35,128 bases of DNA. It comes from a virus. The stretch covers positions 1-35,128 of the IMG/VR virus record IMGVR_UViG_3300022920_000020; one strand, given 5' to 3'. The notes beneath the pieces were generated by a model, which ran no database searches, was not told the DNA's origin, and was given only the letters and a program-made list of their open reading frames with translations. Made by a program: the position numbers and the translations under genes. Position 1 is the stretch's first letter, and each line of letters opens with the position of its first letter. Positions 2,810 to 33,390 of the stretch are shown here, piece by piece.

Positions 2810-3265
2810 TCATTTTCCTAAAAATTTGGAATAGACGCGCTCTATTAAATCAAAGCCCATACCTATCATTAGTTTGTCAAAGGGTATATGCACCTTCGTA
2901 TTTACCATCATCAAAGAAACGCCAGACTCTCGACAATAATCTTCTGCGAACTTGATCAACTTATAACCAGTTGCCCCTGCCCTGCTATCAGGCAGAACAA
3001 ATACAACATCATTTGTTGCAAAGAAATGATCTTGATAATGTATGCTTTTATTCACTAGAAGCACAAAATAACCAACAAGCTCACCATCATCACGAGCAGT
3101 GAATATCTTTAATATTCCTGCCGTATATAATTTGGCGTATTCTTTCCAGTTAGGGTTTAATTTTATCGCACCCTTATTTAACGCAACAAGCCGCCAATGC
3201 TCTTCAAGTAGCGGCTTTATATCTTCCTTCACACTAAGAAGGCTTTCATCTTGTATTGTGATCAT
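2810..3265 (-). CDS. GNAT-family N-acetyltransferase in the tail module
   Basis: 151 residues with a GNAT layout: acidic beta strand and GELVGYFVLLV at about 60-71, an acyl-CoA-loop region near VFVLPDSRAGATGYKLIKFAEDYCRE (88-113), then the late strand and helix (SLMMVNTKVH, LMIGMGFDLIERVYSKFL). The Arg/Gly-rich pyrophosphate loop is present but degenerate, RAGATG. Related acyltransferases occur near the tail genes of several marine phages; their substrates are unknown. It lies two bases from its neighbours, between a DUF2163-like tip protein and the hub, so it is a late protein. It may acetylate a virion or host-surface component (inference). Confidence 0.75.
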   Translation of the reverse strand: MITIQDESLLSVKEDIKPLLEEHWRLVALNKGAIKLNPNWKEYAKLYTAGILKIFTARDDGELVGYFVLLVNKSIHYQDHFFATNDVVFVLPDSRAGATGYKLIKFAEDYCRESGVSLMMVNTKVHIPFDKLMIGMGFDLIERVYSKFLGK

Positions 3266-13574: not shown

Positions 13575-13914
13575 CCACCACTATGTTGATTTGAGGTATT
13601 TCTTGAGGTTCAGCTTCCTGCTCTTTCCAGCCTGCCTGAGTCTTGAGATAGAATATAGCGGCTGTAACATTACCAGCCATAGCCATCTTGACTAGGTTCT
13701 GTGCCATTCTTACAGTCTGCTTCGCCCTTCCCTTTTTATAAGCCTCAGAAACCTCCGGCTGACGCTCCTCTACTGCGCGGAAAGTATTCTCGCTTATCCC
13801 ATAATAATCAGCCAACTGGCCTTTGGTGAGATAAGAAGCCAACTGCTCAAGGTTTGATATCTGACTTTGCTCAAATACAAACTGAGGTCTGCCACCCTTG
13901 TCTTTTTCACTCAT
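13543..13914 (-). CDS. terS: Terminase small subunit
   Basis: 123 residues. The helix-turn-helix region LTKGQLADYYGISENTFRAVEERQPE (about 29-54) is followed by AYKKGRAKQTVRMAQNLVKMAMAGNVTAAIFYLKTQAGWKE, the standard oligomerisation region of small terminases. The C-terminal tail is acidic/Pro rich. It overlaps the stop of the dioxygenase gene by eight bases and the start of TerL by 32, so modification, recognition and packaging genes are translationally linked. It should bind the packaging start site. Confidence 0.87.
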   Translation of the reverse strand: MSEKDKGGRPQFVFEQSQISNLEQLASYLTKGQLADYYGISENTFRAVEERQPEVSEAYKKGRAKQTVRMAQNLVKMAMAGNVTAAIFYLKTQAGWKEQEAEPQEIPQINIVVDGRATNAPAE

Positions 13915-14716
13915 TTAGAAAACCTTTTAGTGCATAGAAAACCAAGCTGTTCCTGTACCCGCCATCATGGGTCGGAACGATAGGGGTCACTGCGTGGACA
14001 TTCCTCCATGCAGGATATAGCAATAGACTACCTGTCGGCATGTCAAAGCAAGCGTCATAGTCTGGCACATATAGACACCCGCCTTTAGAGTTATGTCTAT
14101 GCGTGTATATACAGTTCAATGTCTTCTTCACGTTTGCTCTATCAATGTGGAATGGCGCAGATATGTTGAAGTTACTGATACTAGAGGTGAACAAGTCTCC
14201 AAATTTATACTTTTCATCAATACTAGAAACGGCGACAGAATGCTCCTTGTGCTGTTCTGGCATATAGTCAGCCATAACCTTTCCCATTTCCCTAGAAGCC
14301 ATCAGCATGGCCTTGAGGAATGGCTTTGCGCTTTCAACAGCATGTACCCGACTTCTGTTGTGATAGTCGCGCCTCATATGGGGCTTCTTGACTATTGAGC
14401 CGATGATTGTGCTTTGCTGTACTGTACCAAGCTTCTTCGCCTGAGCTCGCGTTATCTTCAACTTTCTCTGTATCAGCATAACATCGGAACGCTCTAGCAG
14501 GTCTTTAGGAACTCTGTCAGATAAGAACTCCCTGTTAGCCAGAGCCATCAGGTTTTTGAGTTTTGCGTATTTTTCTGGAACGCTCTGTAAGTATATGCCG
14601 ACCAGATCATCTCCATCGTAAAGATATGCTGATTCACAGACATTAGGCTCTATGTATTCACACCTTGAGCCAGTTCGTCTTTCATGCTCTACCTTTTCCA
14701 GCTGTAGTTTTCTCAA
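13907..14716 (-). CDS. TET/JBP-like 2-oxoglutarate/Fe(II) dioxygenase (DNA base hydroxylase)
   Basis: 269 residues from TTG 14716, with AGGA seven bases ahead; the next in-frame ATG would remove about 55 residues. The C-terminal double-stranded beta-helix has the iron triad H190-x-D192 (FHIDRAN) and H241 (NVHAVTPI), GG at 212-213 (KGGCLYVPDY), and the 2OG-binding Arg about 255 (GYRNSLVFYAL). This matches the TET/JBP subfamily. Residues 96-116 (GTVQQSTIIGSIVKKPHMRR) are a block shared by phage relatives. Family members oxidise the methyl group of 5mC or thymine in DNA. It follows the TAGT-like gene, whose sugar would go onto the new hydroxyl. The target base is not readable from sequence. Confidence 0.8.
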   Translation of the reverse strand: MRKLQLEKVEHERRTGSRCEYIEPNVCESAYLYDGDDLVGIYLQSVPEKYAKLKNLMALANREFLSDRVPKDLLERSDVMLIQRKLKITRAQAKKLGTVQQSTIIGSIVKKPHMRRDYHNRSRVHAVESAKPFLKAMLMASREMGKVMADYMPEQHKEHSVAVSSIDEKYKFGDLFTSSISNFNISAPFHIDRANVKKTLNCIYTHRHNSKGGCLYVPDYDACFDMPTGSLLLYPAWRNVHAVTPIVPTHDGGYRNSLVFYALKGFLNE

Positions 14717-15441
14717 AGCACTTTCCTCATGCAGTGTTTAGCGTAACCTTTAATATCTGCCTTGATATCTAATCTGTCTGGCTTCTGTTTCAGTGTTACC
14801 CAAGGACTCCAAGTCATAGCCATTTTTCTCGCCGCATCATGGTCTTTGTTAGTCTTGTACCAATCATGCAAACCACCTGCATTGCTACCTATCTTTGGAG
14901 TATTGAACCAATAGTGATTAAACCGCAATACACCATTACCCTTCTCAATAGACTGTAACAAGAAGTCCCTATCCTCTTTCGTGTTTTCCCTGTAGTTCCA
15001 ATGTATCTTAGATATGTGGAGCAGAACGCAACCTTCCGCGAACTTGCTGTTGATACTATGACGTTTCTTTTCAGTCCAAGCGAACTGGGCGAAACTCATG
15101 CCTACGATCTCAAAAGGAAGCTTCATCGCTTTTTCTTCTATTTCCTTGAGAATGCTACCATCTTTGCGAACAGTCTTTCCATTGTATATACCGAAAGCAG
15201 TGATATCGTCATCACAAACCCAAGTCCATTCGTGATTCTGCTCGCGGCACCAATCAAGCATAAAGTTTCTAACGAACGTCATACCCATATCATCTTTGCC
15301 GATATTGACTCTATTTGTTACAGCCTCGTAGCTGTCATAGTCCTGCGGCTCAACGAAATGATAGACATCATACCCCGCATCTTCGAATATCTTGTGGGTC
15401 TTTGTCTTAGGCCTTCCCTTGCTAGGGATGCAGACTATCAC
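14713..15441 (-). CDS. TAGT-like glycosyltransferase (TET-associated, GREB1-type)
   Basis: 242 residues from GTG 15441, which overlaps the ParB-like stop (GTGA). Residues 5-12 (IPSKGRPK), FVEPQDYDSY at 29-38, and the metal-binding DDD at 77-79 in TWVCDDDI form the GT-A-fold signature of TET-associated glycosyltransferases. The C-terminal segment GGLHDWYKTNKDHDAARKMA is typical too. The family is predicted to transfer sugar to hydroxymethylated bases made by the adjacent dioxygenase. Stop and start overlap with the dioxygenase gene. The sugar donor is not known. Confidence 0.75.
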   Translation of the reverse strand: MIVCIPSKGRPKTKTHKIFEDAGYDVYHFVEPQDYDSYEAVTNRVNIGKDDMGMTFVRNFMLDWCREQNHEWTWVCDDDITAFGIYNGKTVRKDGSILKEIEEKAMKLPFEIVGMSFAQFAWTEKKRHSINSKFAEGCVLLHISKIHWNYRENTKEDRDFLLQSIEKGNGVLRFNHYWFNTPKIGSNAGGLHDWYKTNKDHDAARKMAMTWSPWVTLKQKPDRLDIKADIKGYAKHCMRKVL

Positions 15442-16043
15442 AATTTGTTCATTTCTTTTCTAAGGTAATCAAGAATAATGCCGCCGACATATGCGTCTTT
15501 CTGTCTCCAGAATTTGATAACTTCTTGCGCTTCCTCGAAATCATCAGAGTTAAACTCTATCTGTATAGCTTTCTTAACATCCCTTGTCATTTCATTAAGT
15601 TCAGCTTCATCTTCATCGTCATCAAGAATAGAGTAATCAAGATCACCAGCAAAATCAGGTATGACATCCCAACCCAATAAGTCGAGGTCTAGCCCTTCTA
15701 GTTTGATAGCCTCTATTTCCTGCTCCAGTATGACATCATCCCAGCTAGAGTTTAGGCTGAGTTTATTGTCAGCAATAATGTAGGCTTTCTTTTCTGCTTC
15801 AGATAAACCCTCTACTGTAACCACTGGCACCTCATCCAACTCAAGCAACTGCGCGGCATACATCCGGCCATGACCAGACAGGATCATCCCTTTCTCATCA
15901 ACTTGTATCGGATTATTGAACCCGAACTTATCAATGCTATTTGCTATCTGCTGTATCTGCTTTTCGCTATGGAATCTTGAGTTGTTTTCATATGGGTGTA
16001 TATCTTCTATGGGTGTAATCTTGAAATCTTCGTCAGCTATCAT
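15438..16043 (-). CDS. ParB-like domain protein of the modification island
   Basis: 201 residues from ATG 16043, which overlaps the upstream TGA (ATGA). A longer open frame to 16127 only runs back into the previous gene. The ParB/sulfiredoxin-type domain covers about 10-110: PIEDIHPYENNSRFH, IQQIANSIDKFGFNNPI, GHGR at 57-60, then ADNKLSLNSSWD. This form occurs in phages, often beside or fused to DNA modification enzymes, where it may read sequence or prepare DNA. The C-terminal half is strongly acidic (DDDEDEAELNE). No methyltransferase domain is fused here. Confidence 0.82.
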   Translation of the reverse strand: MIADEDFKITPIEDIHPYENNSRFHSEKQIQQIANSIDKFGFNNPIQVDEKGMILSGHGRMYAAQLLELDEVPVVTVEGLSEAEKKAYIIADNKLSLNSSWDDVILEQEIEAIKLEGLDLDLLGWDVIPDFAGDLDYSILDDDEDEAELNEMTRDVKKAIQIEFNSDDFEEAQEVIKFWRQKDAYVGGIILDYLRKEMNKL

Positions 16044-16702
16044 TTCACTACCTTTTTGTCGTGGTCTATCCAAGTGTTTGCTTTCAAATCCTTGATGTAA
16101 TAATGCTCTGTGCCATCTTTGCTCCACTTTGTGTGGGCGATGTGCATTGGCTTATATGATGGGGCTACTTTCTTGATAAATCTTGACAGAAACCTGGGAC
16201 CTGTAGTCTGTAGCACAAATCGGCCTTTCCAAATATCGTAGATTTCTATAGATTCTTTTTCTTTGTAGTTCTTCACACACTCCTTCATTGCGCCTTCCCA
16301 GAGATTCGCGCCTTCAATAGAACCAATGAAATCGTTTTCTATCCACGACCATCGTTCTTTGACATGCCGTATATTGTGGAATACAAACTCTTTACCCCGC
16401 AAAGCATCTAGTGGCTTCAATATAAACATATCCATATCTATGTAAAAGCCCCCATAGCGGTGCAATATACAGAACCTCACAAAATCAATTTTCTGTATCT
16501 CATAGCGGAACGCGTCATAGAATTCTAAGTAACTAGGGTAGTGTTCAGATATCAGGTTTCTGCAACTCTCTTCATTCCATAGAGTGTATTCATAGTCGGT
16601 GTAACTCTGGCATATCCCCTTGCTTTTCAAGAACATAGGGAACTGCTCCAACTCTTTTCCTGTCAAGTTGAAATAGATTTGATGTATCTTCTTTGGGATC
16701 AT
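16040..16702 (-). CDS. GT32-like glycosyltransferase with DXD motif (Gly_transf_sug)
   Basis: 220 residues. IPKKIHQIYFN at 2-12 and KIDFVRFCILHRYGGFYIDMDM (71-92, DMD the metal-binding triad) are the hallmark of OCH1/capsule-type GT32 sugar transferases. It overlaps the previous small gene and the ParB-like gene with ATGA junctions. Its placement beside the TAGT-like and dioxygenase genes suggests it extends or supplies a sugar in DNA hypermodification. Modification of a virion or host glycan is an alternative. Confidence 0.82.
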   Translation of the reverse strand: MIPKKIHQIYFNLTGKELEQFPMFLKSKGICQSYTDYEYTLWNEESCRNLISEHYPSYLEFYDAFRYEIQKIDFVRFCILHRYGGFYIDMDMFILKPLDALRGKEFVFHNIRHVKERWSWIENDFIGSIEGANLWEGAMKECVKNYKEKESIEIYDIWKGRFVLQTTGPRFLSRFIKKVAPSYKPMHIAHTKWSKDGTEHYYIKDLKANTWIDHDKKVVK

Positions 16703-27901: not shown

Positions 27902-28264
27902 CTAATCCGCAGGAATGAGGTCGATGTCTTTTTGTGTGTACTGTAAAACTCTCAGCATATCTTCTACGTTCCTAGCATGGCCTGCCTCTAGCAGGATATC
28001 TAAAAAATCTGTACCGCCTTGCTTGGCTAATCCCCAAGCGACAATGTTCGCTTTGGTCACATCAGAAAACGCTACGAAGGATTCAGCATTAACATCGTCT
28101 ACATCTAGTTCTGTTTTTATCAAAGCTACGCTGTGATGATCTGGCAGGCTAGTCTCAAAAAAATGCACCTCCCACTCAATATACTTCACAATATCAGTAA
28201 AGTTTTCAGTCGTCACGCAACCGACTCGTCTCAGTTCTGTGATGTAATCAATTGTCATGCTCAT
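27902..28264 (-). CDS. Small late protein (DUF7936-like)
   Basis: 120 residues. Residues 5-60 (YITELRRVGCVTTENFTDIVKYIEWEVHFFE) and ALIKTELDVDDVNAESFVAFSDVTKANIVAWGLAKQGG resemble a small marine-phage family found after fibre genes. Function is unknown. ATGA links it to the glycosyltransferase-like gene upstream. Confidence 0.7.
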   Translation of the reverse strand: MSMTIDYITELRRVGCVTTENFTDIVKYIEWEVHFFETSLPDHHSVALIKTELDVDDVNAESFVAFSDVTKANIVAWGLAKQGGTDFLDILLEAGHARNVEDMLRVLQYTQKDIDLIPAD

Positions 28265-28983
28265 TTGCTAACTCCTAATGGTAAATTTTTAGCCAGCCCT
28301 TTTCTTAGCTTGGCGACTCTATGCAATGTTTTCAGTGCCACTGATTCAACCTTTTTACGGGCATCATCAGGTAATCCCTCTGAAAACTCTAATGCTGTTT
28401 CTAATCTATAGGCAAACATCTCGTTGCCATTAGCTGTCCCTTTTTCGTAAACAGAGGTGTAATTCAAAACAGATGCTTGCTCTCCTAACATACCGTAGTC
28501 CATAGCGACTCTTGCGCTGACAGCCTCTGGGATAATCACATCGCACTTATGGTTCATGTGCCTAGGCATTCTTAATCTTTTCACGCGACCAAGGACACCT
28601 GCATCACCGTCTGGTATTCTTACCCACCGACTTGGGTTGATACAGAAAACAGATAAATCCATCGACTTTTTGCTCAGATTGCTACCGATCAGCCCATATA
28701 TATGATTGTTATCAGAGTTATCTGTGAACACTCCTTCCCGACTCACGCATATGTCGTACTGCTCTAGTAACGATTTTTCTGGCAAATCGCCTTCTTGTAT
28801 ATCTAATATTACTCCGCTCTTGACAACCAAGCAAATCTCGTCAGAGTTCATTAGTGCTGTTCTTATAAAACCGCCATTATAATCAACTACATCAAACTCC
28901 CAATCAGGCATATTCTTACGAATGCTATTAAGCGTAAGCCCGCTTAACTGATTGCATTTGATCACCAATATCTTTAGGCGCAA
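28261..28983 (-). CDS. Glycosyltransferase-like protein, partner of the KpsC-like gene
   Basis: 240 residues from TTG 28983, chosen because a perfect AGGAGG (28995-28990) lies six bases ahead; the longer frame to 29058 has no site and overlaps the neighbour by 131 bases. The opening ILVIKCNQLSGLTLNSIRKNMPDWEFDVVDYNGG and the line NSDEICLVVKSGVIL at about 48-62 resemble a GT-A-type nucleotide-sugar fold, but no DXD is certain. It overlaps the KpsC-like gene by 56 bases. Assignment is tentative. Confidence 0.5.
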   Translation of the reverse strand: MRLKILVIKCNQLSGLTLNSIRKNMPDWEFDVVDYNGGFIRTALMNSDEICLVVKSGVILDIQEGDLPEKSLLEQYDICVSREGVFTDNSDNNHIYGLIGSNLSKKSMDLSVFCINPSRWVRIPDGDAGVLGRVKRLRMPRHMNHKCDVIIPEAVSARVAMDYGMLGEQASVLNYTSVYEKGTANGNEMFAYRLETALEFSEGLPDDARKKVESVALKTLHRVAKLRKGLAKNLPLGVSK

Positions 28984-29827
28984 TGTGTTCCTCCTGATCG
29001 TATTGCAGAAAAAATTTCTGTATCCGTTCTTGCGGTTCATCAACGCTCGCTGGAACAAGCCCCGAAGTCTTGCAAGACAGAATCGCCTTCAGCTTTTCCG
29101 CGCTCAACTGTCCGTTATGCAGAAGAGATTTGTAAATAGCACTGTAGGTACACCACTGGTTATCTTTGCCAAACCTATACACTGCCTTTCCTTTTGCGAG
29201 TGCCGCAATACCCATTTCTGAATTATCACAACAACCAACAATTTTTGCTTCTTGCAATAACTGGTGTCCACTAATTTTCTTTGGTATTACAGCGTCACCG
29301 TATTTGTGAACTAAGTGCTGATAAGCAGGTGCGGAGGTAAGAGGGTGACACTTCAGCTTTGCCCCTTGCCTGACAGCGTTATCCACTTTCGCCCAGTCAG
29401 TCACTTTGTTCAGAATATTAGTTCCTGCCAAAAAAATAACAAAATCATGCGCGCTTCTGCTTGGCCTTAGCCGATACTTATCTTCACAATTTTTTGCTAT
29501 CTCAAGGAAAAGCCTTTCGCCTTCTTCAGTCACCTTAGACTCAGCCGCTCTGCTCATGGCTTCACTAGCAAACTTTTCGCTGGCTACTCTCAGGTATATG
29601 AAATTCGTAAGCAAGTCTGTGTAAACATAACCATGTATCTTATTGTCTGGAAAACTGTACCATACGTCATACTCAACCCTCGTACCTTTTTCCCAAGATT
29701 TTGGCAGAAAACTTTTTAAGCCGATCAAGCCGCGATCATCTGCTTTTCGTAGAACATTCCCGCTTTTGAAAAAATGCGCTACAGGATTCCCAAGTTCGTC
29801 ATTGTTTGCTAATTTTTTTAAGCTCAT
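28928..29827 (-). CDS. KpsC/capsule-type GT-B-like protein
   Basis: 299 residues. The C-terminal half has the KpsC/S layout: KCHPLTSAPAYQHL with HP at 161-162, KISGHQLLQEAKIVGCC, and DNSEMGIAALAKGKAVYRFG (201-220), which corresponds to the S-x-x-x-E-A-L-x-x-GK-x-V-x-x-x-G nucleotide-sugar loop. Family members join Kdo or other sugars in capsule lipids. In this place it may add sugars to the neighbouring Thr/Ser-rich protein. ATG 29827 lies inside the coiled-coil mini-gene. Confidence 0.6.
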   Translation of the reverse strand: MSLKKLANNDELGNPVAHFFKSGNVLRKADDRGLIGLKSFLPKSWEKGTRVEYDVWYSFPDNKIHGYVYTDLLTNFIYLRVASEKFASEAMSRAAESKVTEEGERLFLEIAKNCEDKYRLRPSRSAHDFVIFLAGTNILNKVTDWAKVDNAVRQGAKLKCHPLTSAPAYQHLVHKYGDAVIPKKISGHQLLQEAKIVGCCDNSEMGIAALAKGKAVYRFGKDNQWCTYSAIYKSLLHNGQLSAEKLKAILSCKTSGLVPASVDEPQERIQKFFLQYDQEEHIAPKDIGDQMQSVKRAYA

Positions 29828-29945
29828 TTGTCAGCCTTGAAACTTCATCTTCAAGTTCCGTGATTCGATCTTCTGTTTCGCTGAAATGCTCCATGATTAT
29901 TTCCAGAGCATTTTCTAACTTCCCATTGATTTCTTTAAAGTCCAT
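29799..29945 (-). CDS. 48-residue coiled-coil protein
   Basis: ATG 29945 shares one base with the TAA of the Thr-rich gene; TGA 29801-29799. The sequence (DFKEINGKLENALEIIMEHF, SETEDRITELEDEVSRL, TNELKKISKQ) has heptads of Leu/Ile with Glu/Lys, a clear coiled coil. It links the repeat protein to the glycosyltransferase-like gene: the latter starts 29 bases before its stop. It may be a small subunit or chaperone of the enzyme or fibre. Confidence 0.7.
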   Translation of the reverse strand: MDFKEINGKLENALEIIMEHFSETEDRITELEDEVSRLTNELKKISKQ

Positions 29946-31330
29946 TAATCCTCCGTCCACTGAGACCCATCCCAGTAACGACCATTATGCGCGCTCCCGC
30001 TACTTACTTCAGTCTGATTTCCAGTTGCAGTTAGACGCTCGTAAACTACTGTCGCTGTGTCACGGCTCGTTGTTGTTGCGCGACTTGTTCCTGTCAAACT
30101 GTTAGTGGAGCGCGTTGTATTCGTATTAAACGCTGTTGAAGTTGTTTTAGATGTTGATGTTGATGTGCCAAACGTAGTCGTAAAAGAAGTCGTGGTGGAG
30201 CGACTGGCAGGTATATTCGTATTAGTGTCAAACTGTGTGGTAGTGCTTTTACTCGTTGAGTTAGAAGTACCGAAAGTTACAGTTGTGTTGAACGAAGTTG
30301 TCGTAGAATGCGATGTACCGAAAATGGTTGTCGTATTGAACGAGGTTGTCGTAGTCGGGGCGGTAGTGTGCGATGTATTGTAGCTAGTCGTATAGGCTGT
30401 AGTGGTCGCTTTGCTAGTCGTCCTGCTAGTGTTGTAGCTAGTCGTATAGGAAGTCGTTGTGCTTTTGCTGGTACCGCGACTAGTGCTAGTTGTAGACGAT
30501 GACGTAACAGTCCTAGTAATCTTATATTGGCTTATAGTTCCAGTGTATGGATTCCAAGAAGAAGTCTGAATCGCCCCACGATTGTAAGTAGTGTTTCCAT
30601 TTGTAAATGACGTTGCACCAGACGATCCTTGGCCTACAGTTGCACCACCGTAAGTGAAAAGAGCCTGAAAAGCAGAGTCCATCACTTGATTAGAACCGCT
30701 AAATGCTGGCGAACTTGTGCTACTAGATGTCCCTGTCGTGTTGAATGTCGTGGTATAGCTTGTAGTGGTCGCTTTGCTAGTCGTCTTGCTAGTCGCGTAA
30801 GTAGTTGTATAGGACGTTGTAGTACTCTTAGAAGTCCCGCGACTAGTTCCATACGTTGTGGTGTATGAAGTTGTTGTGCTTCGACTTGTGCCTGTCGCAC
30901 GACTCGTATTGTAGCTAGTGGTGGTCGCTCTAGAAGTGCCTCTTACGCTAGTCGTATTGTAGGAAGTTGTGTAGGTCGTTGTCGTTGCCCTAGATGTCCC
31001 AGTAACCGGATAAGTCGTAAAGCTAGTGGTGGTCGATCTAGAAGTACCGCGACTTGTATCGTAAGAAGTCGTGTAAGTAGTTGTAGTGTCGCGGGCTGTG
31101 ACTGTGGCGAACGTAGTTGTAAAAGTGGTTGTGGTATTGAAAGAAGTAGTCGTATTAAACGCTGTTGAAGTGTCTCGACTAGTCACATACACCGCATTCC
31201 AAACAGTCGATAATGTACCGTTGTTGTTAGCTACAACATAATTTACGCCATACAGAGTACCCTGATCTGCTTTAGCAAAAATCTGGGTAGGCTCTTTTAG
31301 AGTTCCACTGTCATTGACTTTTATAGACAT
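29945..31330 (-). CDS. Thr/Ser-rich repeat virion protein (fibre candidate)
   Basis: 461 residues; AAGGAG precedes ATG 31330. After a short N-terminus, residues 50-205 and 286-440 are imperfect repeats of about 11-15 residues, T-S-R-x-TTT-S-Y/F-x-T-x-Y/F, in which Thr and Ser make up roughly half or more of the residues. Between them, about 207-285, is a segment without repeats (NQVMDSAFQALFTYGG, YNRGAIQTSSWNP). The last 30 residues are again unlike the repeats (NGRYWDGSQWTED). The location among fibre genes suggests a surface protein; the repeats are possible O-glycosylation sites. Long open frames on the opposite strand are shadows of the ACN codons. Confidence 0.78.
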   Translation of the reverse strand: MSIKVNDSGTLKEPTQIFAKADQGTLYGVNYVVANNNGTLSTVWNAVYVTSRDTSTAFNTTTSFNTTTTFTTTFATVTARDTTTTYTTSYDTSRGTSRSTTTSFTTYPVTGTSRATTTTYTTSYNTTSVRGTSRATTTSYNTSRATGTSRSTTTSYTTTYGTSRGTSKSTTTSYTTTYATSKTTSKATTTSYTTTFNTTGTSSSTSSPAFSGSNQVMDSAFQALFTYGGATVGQGSSGATSFTNGNTTYNRGAIQTSSWNPYTGTISQYKITRTVTSSSTTSTSRGTSKSTTTSYTTSYNTSRTTSKATTTAYTTSYNTSHTTAPTTTTSFNTTTIFGTSHSTTTSFNTTVTFGTSNSTSKSTTTQFDTNTNIPASRSTTTSFTTTFGTSTSTSKTTSTAFNTNTTRSTNSLTGTSRATTTSRDTATVVYERLTATGNQTEVSSGSAHNGRYWDGSQWTED

Positions 31331-31339
31331 GGCAACTCC

Positions 31340-31855
31340 TTAACTAACTACATACCAAACGTGTCCATTAGCAAAGCCACTGGCACTGGTAGGTGCGGTA
31401 GTGACAACAGATTGTGTGCCAGCATTGTTAAGCTTGGTGTGATCAGCGTCAGTGAAAACATTTGAGTCAGTTGCGCCTTCTACCAACGTCCTGATCTCTG
31501 CGGCTGTCTGGTCAGCGGTGGCACTAGCTTCTATGCCATTCAGCTTTGTGTGATCAGCATCTGTGAAGTTGTTTTGCGTCAGACCGCCATCACCAACAGA
31601 ATAAGTCGTGTTAGTGCTAGTAATAGTAAAGCTGGGGTACGTTCCTGAAATGCTAGTAGCACCCGCACCCGTCAACGCGACAGTTTGATCAGGGGCACTA
31701 TTAGATATTTGCCCGCCCGAAGACAGGCCGATTCCTGTGCCTGCGGACAGATCAGAAAGCTCTAACTTATCTGTATTGAGATTGGTGAAATTAGAATCAA
31801 CCTCGGCATTCGTCAGGGGCGAACCTTTGCCCGATCTTGTTACTATCGTAGACAT
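31340..31855 (-). CDS. Tail-fibre-type protein with FTDADHTKLN repeats
   Basis: 171 residues. MSTIVTRSGKGSPLTNAEVDSNFTNLN opens a family common in marine-phage fibres; it is followed by a Ser/Gly/Thr beta region and two copies of FTDADHTKLN (about 97-106 and 135-144), with ASATADQTAAEIRTLVE between. This block is widespread in cyanophage and other aquatic phage fibres. It should be structural; GGGG-like site before ATG 31855. Confidence 0.78.
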   Translation of the reverse strand: MSTIVTRSGKGSPLTNAEVDSNFTNLNTDKLELSDLSAGTGIGLSSGGQISNSAPDQTVALTGAGATSISGTYPSFTITSTNTTYSVGDGGLTQNNFTDADHTKLNGIEASATADQTAAEIRTLVEGATDSNVFTDADHTKLNNAGTQSVVTTAPTSASGFANGHVWYVVS

Positions 31856-32331: not shown

Positions 32332-33390
32332 CTAAAAAGTTCGGCTGTAGCCGACATAATCCTCTGAAAAATACCCAAACACTGAATACCCTTGCCCACG
32401 AAGAGAACCAGAGTCAGTTGACCCGATTGTATCACTATTTGCTTTACTTTGTGTACTAAAAATAGTATCTGACAAAATAGCCAAATCAGCACGAACTTTG
32501 ACAAATGACATTTCCTGATCGTCTTGTGCTGTTGCTTCACCATCAAGGTCATCAGTAACGAATAGCCTTTCAGTGATAAATTTGCTGAAACTCATGACAT
32601 GATCATCTGACAACGACCCTGCTTCGCTTAATACCTTTTGCCTGATAATATCAATAGACTCAGAAACGCTAGTGGCATCAGTTAATCCTTTAGATACTGC
32701 AATGCCTATTTCATCGCCTATTCCTGCACTGTCGGCCGACAGCTTCGCGTAAGCTAGACTGATTTGCTCTGACAGAACCGCCTGATCCGACTTGTTCAAA
32801 TTGATCAATAATTGAGCAACATCAGATACAGATGGCGATTCAGGGAATGCCTTTAAGAACAATCTCGCTATTAGGAACGAATCTGTAAACCCAGCGGTAT
32901 CGGTAAAAGGCTTAGCTGTACCCTTGCTTGGGCTGTCTGCGACTTGCGCCTGTTCTGCTAGTGTCTTTAATGCCTCCAATGCTACAGAATCCGTGATCTG
33001 CGGTAGCTCATTCAAGGCTTTGCTGACTGCTTGACTTTGTATATCGGTAAGCGATATGGATTCTTGACTGTTCTTACCGTACGCGTTTACGCTCGTTTCA
33101 GTGAATGCCGCGCTATCTTGTTTCAGTTTGGTTACGTTTTTAGGCGATTGTTCAGTTAATGAAACAGTTTCTGATTTTGGCTTGTCTATTTCGTTAGCGG
33201 TATTATCAGATACACTTCCGCTTTCCTGCAAAGACTTGCCTGTTATTTTGGCAAGTACATCAGAAATACCTGTCGCATCAACGAAATCTTTCGCAAGTAT
33301 CCTTAATGAAATGAATATAGCTTTGAATACAGCGCGATTTTGACGCACTTGGGCTTTCGCTCTGTTTAAAGCCGCAGATAATTTGATCAT
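32332..33390 (-). CDS. Repeat-rich fibre-like protein (about 19-residue repeats)
   Basis: 352 residues. After a basic N-terminal helix, residues 60-330 are about a dozen imperfect repeats of roughly 18-20 residues with the core x-S/T-D/E-S/T followed by about eight residues and Lys (examples: ETVSLTEQSPKNVTK, ESISLTDIQSQAVSK, DAGSLSDDHVMSFSK-like). The end (GQGYSVFGYFSEDYVGYSRTF) is aromatic and may fold separately. Such repeats fit a long fibre or spacer. ATGA overlap with the BppU-like gene. Confidence 0.7.
   Translation of the reverse strand: MIKLSAALNRAKAQVRQNRAVFKAIFISLRILAKDFVDATGISDVLAKITGKSLQESGSVSDNTANEIDKPKSETVSLTEQSPKNVTKLKQDSAAFTETSVNAYGKNSQESISLTDIQSQAVSKALNELPQITDSVALEALKTLAEQAQVADSPSKGTAKPFTDTAGFTDSFLIARLFLKAFPESPSVSDVAQLLINLNKSDQAVLSEQISLAYAKLSADSAGIGDEIGIAVSKGLTDATSVSESIDIIRQKVLSEAGSLSDDHVMSFSKFITERLFVTDDLDGEATAQDDQEMSFVKVRADLAILSDTIFSTQSKANSDTIGSTDSGSLRGQGYSVFGYFSEDYVGYSRTF

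Follow-up and report, generated by a model that had tools for sequence, protein, structure and literature searches.

The IMG/VR virus record IMGVR_UViG_3300022920_000020 (35,128 nt; hereafter the window, i.e., the whole stretch of DNA analyzed) carries a cassette of four genes, encoding a Thr/Ser-rich repeat protein, a coiled-coil mini-protein, and two putative glycosyltransferases, here called GT1 and GT2. The cassette is real, conserved and widespread, and the link between GT1 and the repeat protein is nearly absolute across unrelated phages, in both search directions. We infer the activity, sugar donor, acceptor, virion presence and function of the system, and consider it likely (probability about 0.7) that phages use this cassette to O-glycosylate a mucin-like component of their tail fibres.

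A cassette of four coupled genes

The features of the cassette, in order of translation, are the following:
29945..31330, minus strand: Thr/Ser-rich tetrad-repeat protein, 461 aa, proposed glycosylation acceptor
29799..29945 (open reading frame, ORF, 29799-29960), minus strand: coiled-coil mini-protein, 48 aa counted from the ATG at 29945
28928..29827, minus strand: GT1, KpsC-fold (modified GT-B) putative cytidine monophosphate (CMP)-sugar glycosyltransferase, 299 aa
29666..29668, minus strand: D54 of GT1, candidate catalytic acid/base by its inferred role, invariant in 20/20 diverged members
29342..29353, minus strand: K159-C-H161-P162, the (K/R)xHP CMP-binding motif of GT1, whose K, H and P do not vary among 20 highly diverged members
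28261..28983, minus strand: GT2, GT-A-fold protein, 240 aa, overlapping the GT1 stop

The genes run in the order repeat protein, coiled coil, GT1, GT2, every stop codon overlaps the next start, and the four genes are translationally coupled. An earlier annotation made from the letters of the window (the sequence-only reading) had named the same four ORFs, and all were confirmed on the minus strand with overlapping stops and starts. In the sequence TAATG, which follows GGAGGA, the TAA stop of the repeat gene runs into the ATG at 29945 that begins the coiled-coil gene, and GT2 starts at a TTG at 28983, not at 29058; this start is conserved in relatives. Of 80 viral loci (41-98% identity), most keep this gene order, and relatives also carry a coiled-coil mini-protein between repeat protein and GT1. 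Two relatives have genes inserted between repeat protein and coiled coil, namely a Succinyl-CoA-ligase-like gene and a DUF6875 gene (L119:3894-4865, L101:4296-4856).

The Thr/Ser repeat protein was borne out as described in the sequence-only reading. It contains 157 Thr and 77 Ser in 461 aa (51% Ser+Thr), and consists of a conserved N-terminal segment of ~50 aa, the Thr/Ser repeats, with an aromatic or basic residue at about every fourth position, and a conserved C-terminal tail (VVYERLTATGNQTEV..RYWDGSQWTED). Tetrads of the form [YFRK]xT[ST][YFRK] occur 21 times, against 2.0 +/- 1.4 in 1000 shuffles of the same composition; the tetrad repeat is thus not due to chance. The period-4 autocorrelation of the window protein is modest (z 2.6), because steps of six residues break the period, and direct tetrad counts are clear. 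Searches of Pfam, PHROGs and PDB sequences with the window proteins or family profiles returned nothing informative for the repeat protein or GT2. The label of virion protein, which the repeat protein had been given, derives from its position beside tail-fibre genes.

Linkage of GT1 to Thr/Ser repeats across phages

The ORF directly upstream of GT1 was Thr/Ser-rich in 73 of 85 loci, compared with 6 of the 739 other ORFs of those loci, and most of these six were the module's own repeat protein, further off. GT2 lies directly downstream of GT1 in all IMG/VR loci with enough sequence (78/78). Searching from the N-terminal segment of the repeat protein, we found GT1 in 36/36 loci where the repeat gene was complete and was followed by 250 bases or more. 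The repeat DNA pattern alone led to GT1 in 87 of 93 testable stretches, and among the 89 loci with GT1 in this search, 88 have a Thr/Ser-rich ORF directly upstream. These sets include near-duplicates, so their counts do not represent independent events, and it is the named phages that supply independence. The pairing is present in KVP40, QD01, D479, F86, D484, Cr30 (a less close match, with a short Thr/Tyr-rich protein as partner), Lullwater, BL198 and a SAR92 prophage, spanning T4-like phages (KVP40 and relatives), Autographiviridae/T7-like phages (Lullwater, BL198), and dozens of metagenomic phages. The co-occurrence in related phages that had been proposed as a check is therefore found in unrelated phages as well. 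Compared by eye, the Thr/Ser proteins KVP40 0254 and Lullwater gp41 and those of marine siphoviruses have unrelated N- and C-terminal parts; the repeat is the sole part in common, and for this reason it is the likely common substrate.

GT1 is nearly absent from cellular genomes: a pattern scan of 84,980 genomes gave one confirmed match, in a prophage, and GT1 occurs in 1 of 369 genomes of the class of that SAR92 bacterium. The apparent prophage (L148; SAR92 clade bacterium H921, JAOALD010000003.1) has a collagen-like fibre, a 988-aa Thr/Ser protein, a coiled coil, GT1 and GT2. There the module sits in the tail region, which gives a hint of its host.

The linkage bears on the possibility that the enzymes alter host surface glycans, in serotype conversion or superinfection exclusion, with the repeat protein a mere neighbour. 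It is generally known that KpsC-type enzymes usually make capsule or lipopolysaccharide (LPS) sugars, and that phage glycosyltransferases bring about seroconversion. However, the genes overlap within a tail-fibre operon, and such a role would not explain why, almost without exception, the enzymes accompany Thr/Ser repeats in phages that are unrelated. We regard it as very unlikely.

GT1 and its probable sugar donor

GT1 by itself matches unnamed PHROGs only (PHROG 26179, E 1.4e-46). An AlphaFold2 model built with 44 sequences from viral contigs (predicted local distance difference test, pLDDT, 85; predicted template modelling score, pTM, 0.84) was compared with the PDB using Foldseek, and the top six matches were all KpsC (E 1.1e-5 to 1.8e-4, prob 1.00). 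Comparison of the GT1 profile with KpsC modules by hhalign (P 0.0019) gave an alignment in which the HP and NS..G..AL regions line up. PF05159 (Capsule_synth) is the Pfam family matched by most GT1 members (5 of 44 relatives, best E 8e-4); the window GT1 did not match it at E<=1. Hence the claim of a KpsC-like GT-B protein at 28928-29827 agrees with both the predicted KpsC fold and the KxHP motif, and profile searches that could have placed the two proteins in a non-transferase family pointed to transferases instead, GT1 with the features just given and GT2 by a GT-A fold.

Across 20 GT1 members from very different phages, with identity of ~30% or less, the invariant residues are G23, D54, D116-K117-Y118, L120, G135, N137, K159, H161-P162, E204 and G256. 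The invariance of D54, DKY (116-118), K159, H161, P162 and E204 argues for a probably active GT1. KxHP is a CMP-binding motif common to sialyltransferases and 3-deoxy-D-manno-oct-2-ulosonic acid (Kdo) transferases (PMC12887879). GT1 shares the modified GT-B fold and (K/R)xHP with the retaining Kdo transferases KpsC, WbbB and KrkA (GT107, GT99, GT140; PMC10148158, PMC9587256, PMC12887879); the SKY of KpsC-type enzymes aligns with its DKY, and the NS..G..AL region aligns too. Unlike them, the window protein has no detectable single-sequence match, and GT1 belongs to a phage cassette with a protein partner, whereas KpsC, WbbB and KrkA belong to capsule or LPS loci.

In four loci (L250, L319, L331, L346), a gene for KdsA (Kdo-8-phosphate synthase) lies ~10 bases behind GT1; in L250 it scores 398 bits with the equivalog model, whose cut-off is 242. 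A cupin gene and then a GT29-type sialyltransferase-like gene come after KdsA in L250 and its close relatives. Taken jointly, the KdsA neighbour, the KpsC fold and KxHP suggest that the donor is CMP-Kdo or a ulosonate like it. The known hosts of GT1-bearing phages are Gram-negative, and Gram-negative bacteria make CMP-Kdo, for LPS. The genes next to the module vary from locus to locus; sulfotransferase, GNAT acetyltransferase, methyltransferase and JmjC genes are among them and might serve to decorate a glycan. As separate observations, the KdsA in these four loci (L250:6245-7648) has a C-terminal extension and radical SAM/SPASM genes also follow, and several relatives (L008:7925-9234; L024/L032/L034) have sulfotransferase-like and cupin-like genes two to four genes past GT2.

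GT2 and the points against glycosylation

GT2 was modelled by AlphaFold2 with pLDDT 94.4. Its Foldseek matches include the GT-A proteins STIV A197 (E 8.9e-4), the lysyl hydroxylase LH3, GlyE of S. pneumoniae, LARGE1, XXYLT1, glycogenin and COLGALT1, as well as nucleotidyltransferases with this same fold, all matches being weak (best E 9e-4). Of the earlier description of a second glycosyltransferase-like protein, the GT-A fold is thus upheld by structure prediction and the DxD metal motif is missing: its position reads SGV in the window and [SG]-G-[VIL] in the family, G57 being invariant in 43 members. GT2 may catalyse transfer, as a second enzyme whose site is unusual, or may be a partner without catalytic activity. 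The gene behind GT1 in DLP_6 is supported as a GT2 homologue (P 6e-5).

Several observations weigh against glycosylation by the cassette. Known retaining Kdo transferases have a QXXXD motif with a nucleophilic Asp (PMC10148158). This motif is not conserved in the 20-member GT1 alignment, which has no Gln and no conserved Asp there; hhalign places T-N-I-L-x at this segment, where x varies. Because of this, GT1 is not filed in GT99, GT107 or GT140; its mechanism may differ from that of the known retaining Kdo transferases, and it looks like a new KpsC-fold enzyme family. D54 had been considered as the equivalent of the KpsC nucleophile; this was dropped, as the KpsC literature puts the nucleophile in the QXXXD motif that GT1 lacks. 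Foldseek TM-scores of GT1 against KpsC are only ~0.4. The family alignment of GT2 lacks the DxD motif, and the KVP40 protein downstream of GT1 is not detectably homologous to GT2 (P 0.09). The KdsA loci all belong to one clade, and scanning genes of the window brought up no CMP-sugar synthetase. DLP_6 has the coiled coil, GT1 and the GT2 homologue with no adjoining Thr/Ser repeat protein, and in L076-L081, L095, L100, L103 and L109 the coiled coil and both enzymes lie beside a terminase-like gene, which reads like a small terminase, with no neighbouring repeat protein; one of two contigs examined from this group has a repeat protein at its far end. The ORF before the coiled coil of DLP_6 (L002:3-1655, Stenotrophomonas phage DLP_6) ends, by eye, in a Hint/intein-type-like domain.

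The most serious rival explanation, which we nonetheless judge unlikely, takes GT1 as a catalytically dead KpsC-fold protein, serving as a chaperone or assembly factor of the repeat fibre and moving no sugar. It would fit the missing QXXXD of GT1 and DxD of GT2, the fixed pairing of GT1 with a coiled coil, and the general experience that phage fibres often need dedicated chaperones. However, the conservation of Asp54, DKY, KxHP and Glu204 at such low identity is expected of an active site, and the KdsA gene adjoining GT1 in some phages also speaks against a dead enzyme.

Proposed mechanism

If the cassette is an O-glycosylation system, the N-terminal segment would anchor the repeat protein to the tail-fibre apparatus, and the repeats, as a regular array of tetrads, would present Thr/Ser hydroxyls by the dozen. 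With the coiled coil as the partner that holds it, GT1 would use a CMP-activated ulosonic acid as donor, CMP-Kdo supplied by the Gram-negative host being the likeliest, and pass the sugar to Thr/Ser of the repeat; the transfer would take place in the cytoplasm during virion assembly. GT2 might add a second sugar or act as an acceptor-binding subunit, and some phages have sulfo-, acetyl- or methyltransferases nearby that could modify the glycan further. The virion would in this way gain a stalk or shield that resembles mucin and is stiff and negatively charged. For the suggestion that the phage glycosylates its own fibre, linkage and predicted transferase folds give partial support, and GT2, which without DxD may be a non-catalytic partner, weakens it.

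More tentatively, at somewhat less than even odds, this could be a phage "mucin" system that is widespread but has escaped notice so far: a new KpsC-fold family would O-glycosylate the Thr/Ser stalks of tail fibres, using Kdo or a different ulosonic acid, and the phage's KdsA would sometimes supply the sugar. If so, viruses of Gram-negative bacteria would carry a dedicated pathway of protein glycosylation with ulosonates and make their own glycoprotein fibres, affecting adsorption, stability and recognition, and GT1 would be a new enzyme family attaching ulosonic acids to Thr/Ser. The proposal gives a testable function to a gene set that is annotated just as "hypothetical protein" in KVP40 and Lullwater and is common in environmental viromes; these two laboratory phages, of Vibrio and Caulobacter respectively, are open to immediate testing. 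We found no report of the cassette system in the open-licence literature, subscription papers being outside this coverage.

Comparison with protein glycosylation systems

The sequence-only reading had compared the cassette with the glycosylation of Ser-rich-repeat adhesins (GtfA/GtfB with added glycosyltransferases and accessory Sec; PMC6973325, PMC7948813). Both have an S/T-rich repeat acceptor with dedicated adjacent glycosyltransferases, and GlyE, a glycosyltransferase of S. pneumoniae, is among the top GT2 fold matches. Unlike the adhesins, the cassette is found in phages with Gram-negative hosts, its lead enzyme belongs to another fold family, and its tetrad repeat is richer in Thr than in Ser. 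The C-terminus of the repeat protein (RYWDGSQWTED) does not have an LPXTG-type cell-wall anchor, and general scans of the window proteins gave no match to GtfA/GtfB or SecA2/SecY2, no search aimed at them having been made. The comparison therefore holds well as a functional analogy and not as a family relationship, with no homology shown.

Phage-encoded modification of virion proteins is also represented by mycobacteriophage virion glycosylation (Freeman et al. 2023, as cited in PMC12619734). In that citing account it concerns the C-termini of capsid and tail-tube proteins, in actinobacterial hosts, as opposed to the separate Thr/Ser repeat protein and KpsC-fold enzyme described here. Maf flagellin glycosyltransferases O-link nonulosonic acids, and experimentally Kdo too, to Ser/Thr of proteins (PMC11339370). 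They are a precedent for a ulosonate on protein; Maf enzymes act on flagellin within the producing bacterium.

Genomic context and a putative DNA-modification cluster

The window belongs to a tailed phage whose genes lie nearly all on the minus strand and include those for tape measure, portal, terminase, major head and tail fibre; no known phage with DNA similarity to it was found. The cassette is flanked by two genes:
31340..31855, minus strand: tail-fibre protein, directly upstream of the repeat gene (PHROG 21412 E 1.2e-18, PHROG 24456 E 1.8e-14, both tail fiber protein)
27902..28264, minus strand: DUF7936 protein, with a 4-bp overlap with GT2 (PF25590 E 1e-6)

The DUF7936 gene is frequently the next gene after GT2 in close relatives.

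At 13907-16702 (minus strand), the window also has a DNA-hypermodification-like cluster: a TET/JBP-like oxygenase (E 3.9e-8, just under the Pfam cut-off), a TET-associated glycosyltransferase (TAGT, E 1.1e-15), a ParB_N-like protein (under cut-off), and a DXD sugar-binding glycosyltransferase. The oxygenase is labelled "queuine tRNA-ribosyltransferase" by PHROG 6059. With a TET-type oxygenase and TAGT in the window, we considered that GT1 and GT2 might glycosylate phage DNA, extending a glycan on hydroxymethylcytosine. The phage probably does have glycosylated hydroxymethylcytosine; TET occurs in DLP_6 and Cr30 too, in DLP_6 along with TAGT. Yet TAGT was matched in 2 of 28 GT1-bearing records and in none of the other 26, many records being fragments, and TET in 2 of 14; KVP40 and Lullwater have no match to either. 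Moreover, GT1 follows the repeat protein and not the DNA-modification cluster, which lies ~12 kb away in the window. A role on DNA is thus quite improbable, and O-glycosylation of the repeat protein remains our preferred interpretation.

Upstream of the fibre genes, at 32332-33390 (minus strand), lies a 352-aa protein with degenerate Ser/Asp-type repeats (PHROG 12240, E 7e-8, of unknown function), and a GNAT acetyltransferase-like gene (2810-3265, minus strand) adjoins a tail J-like protein.

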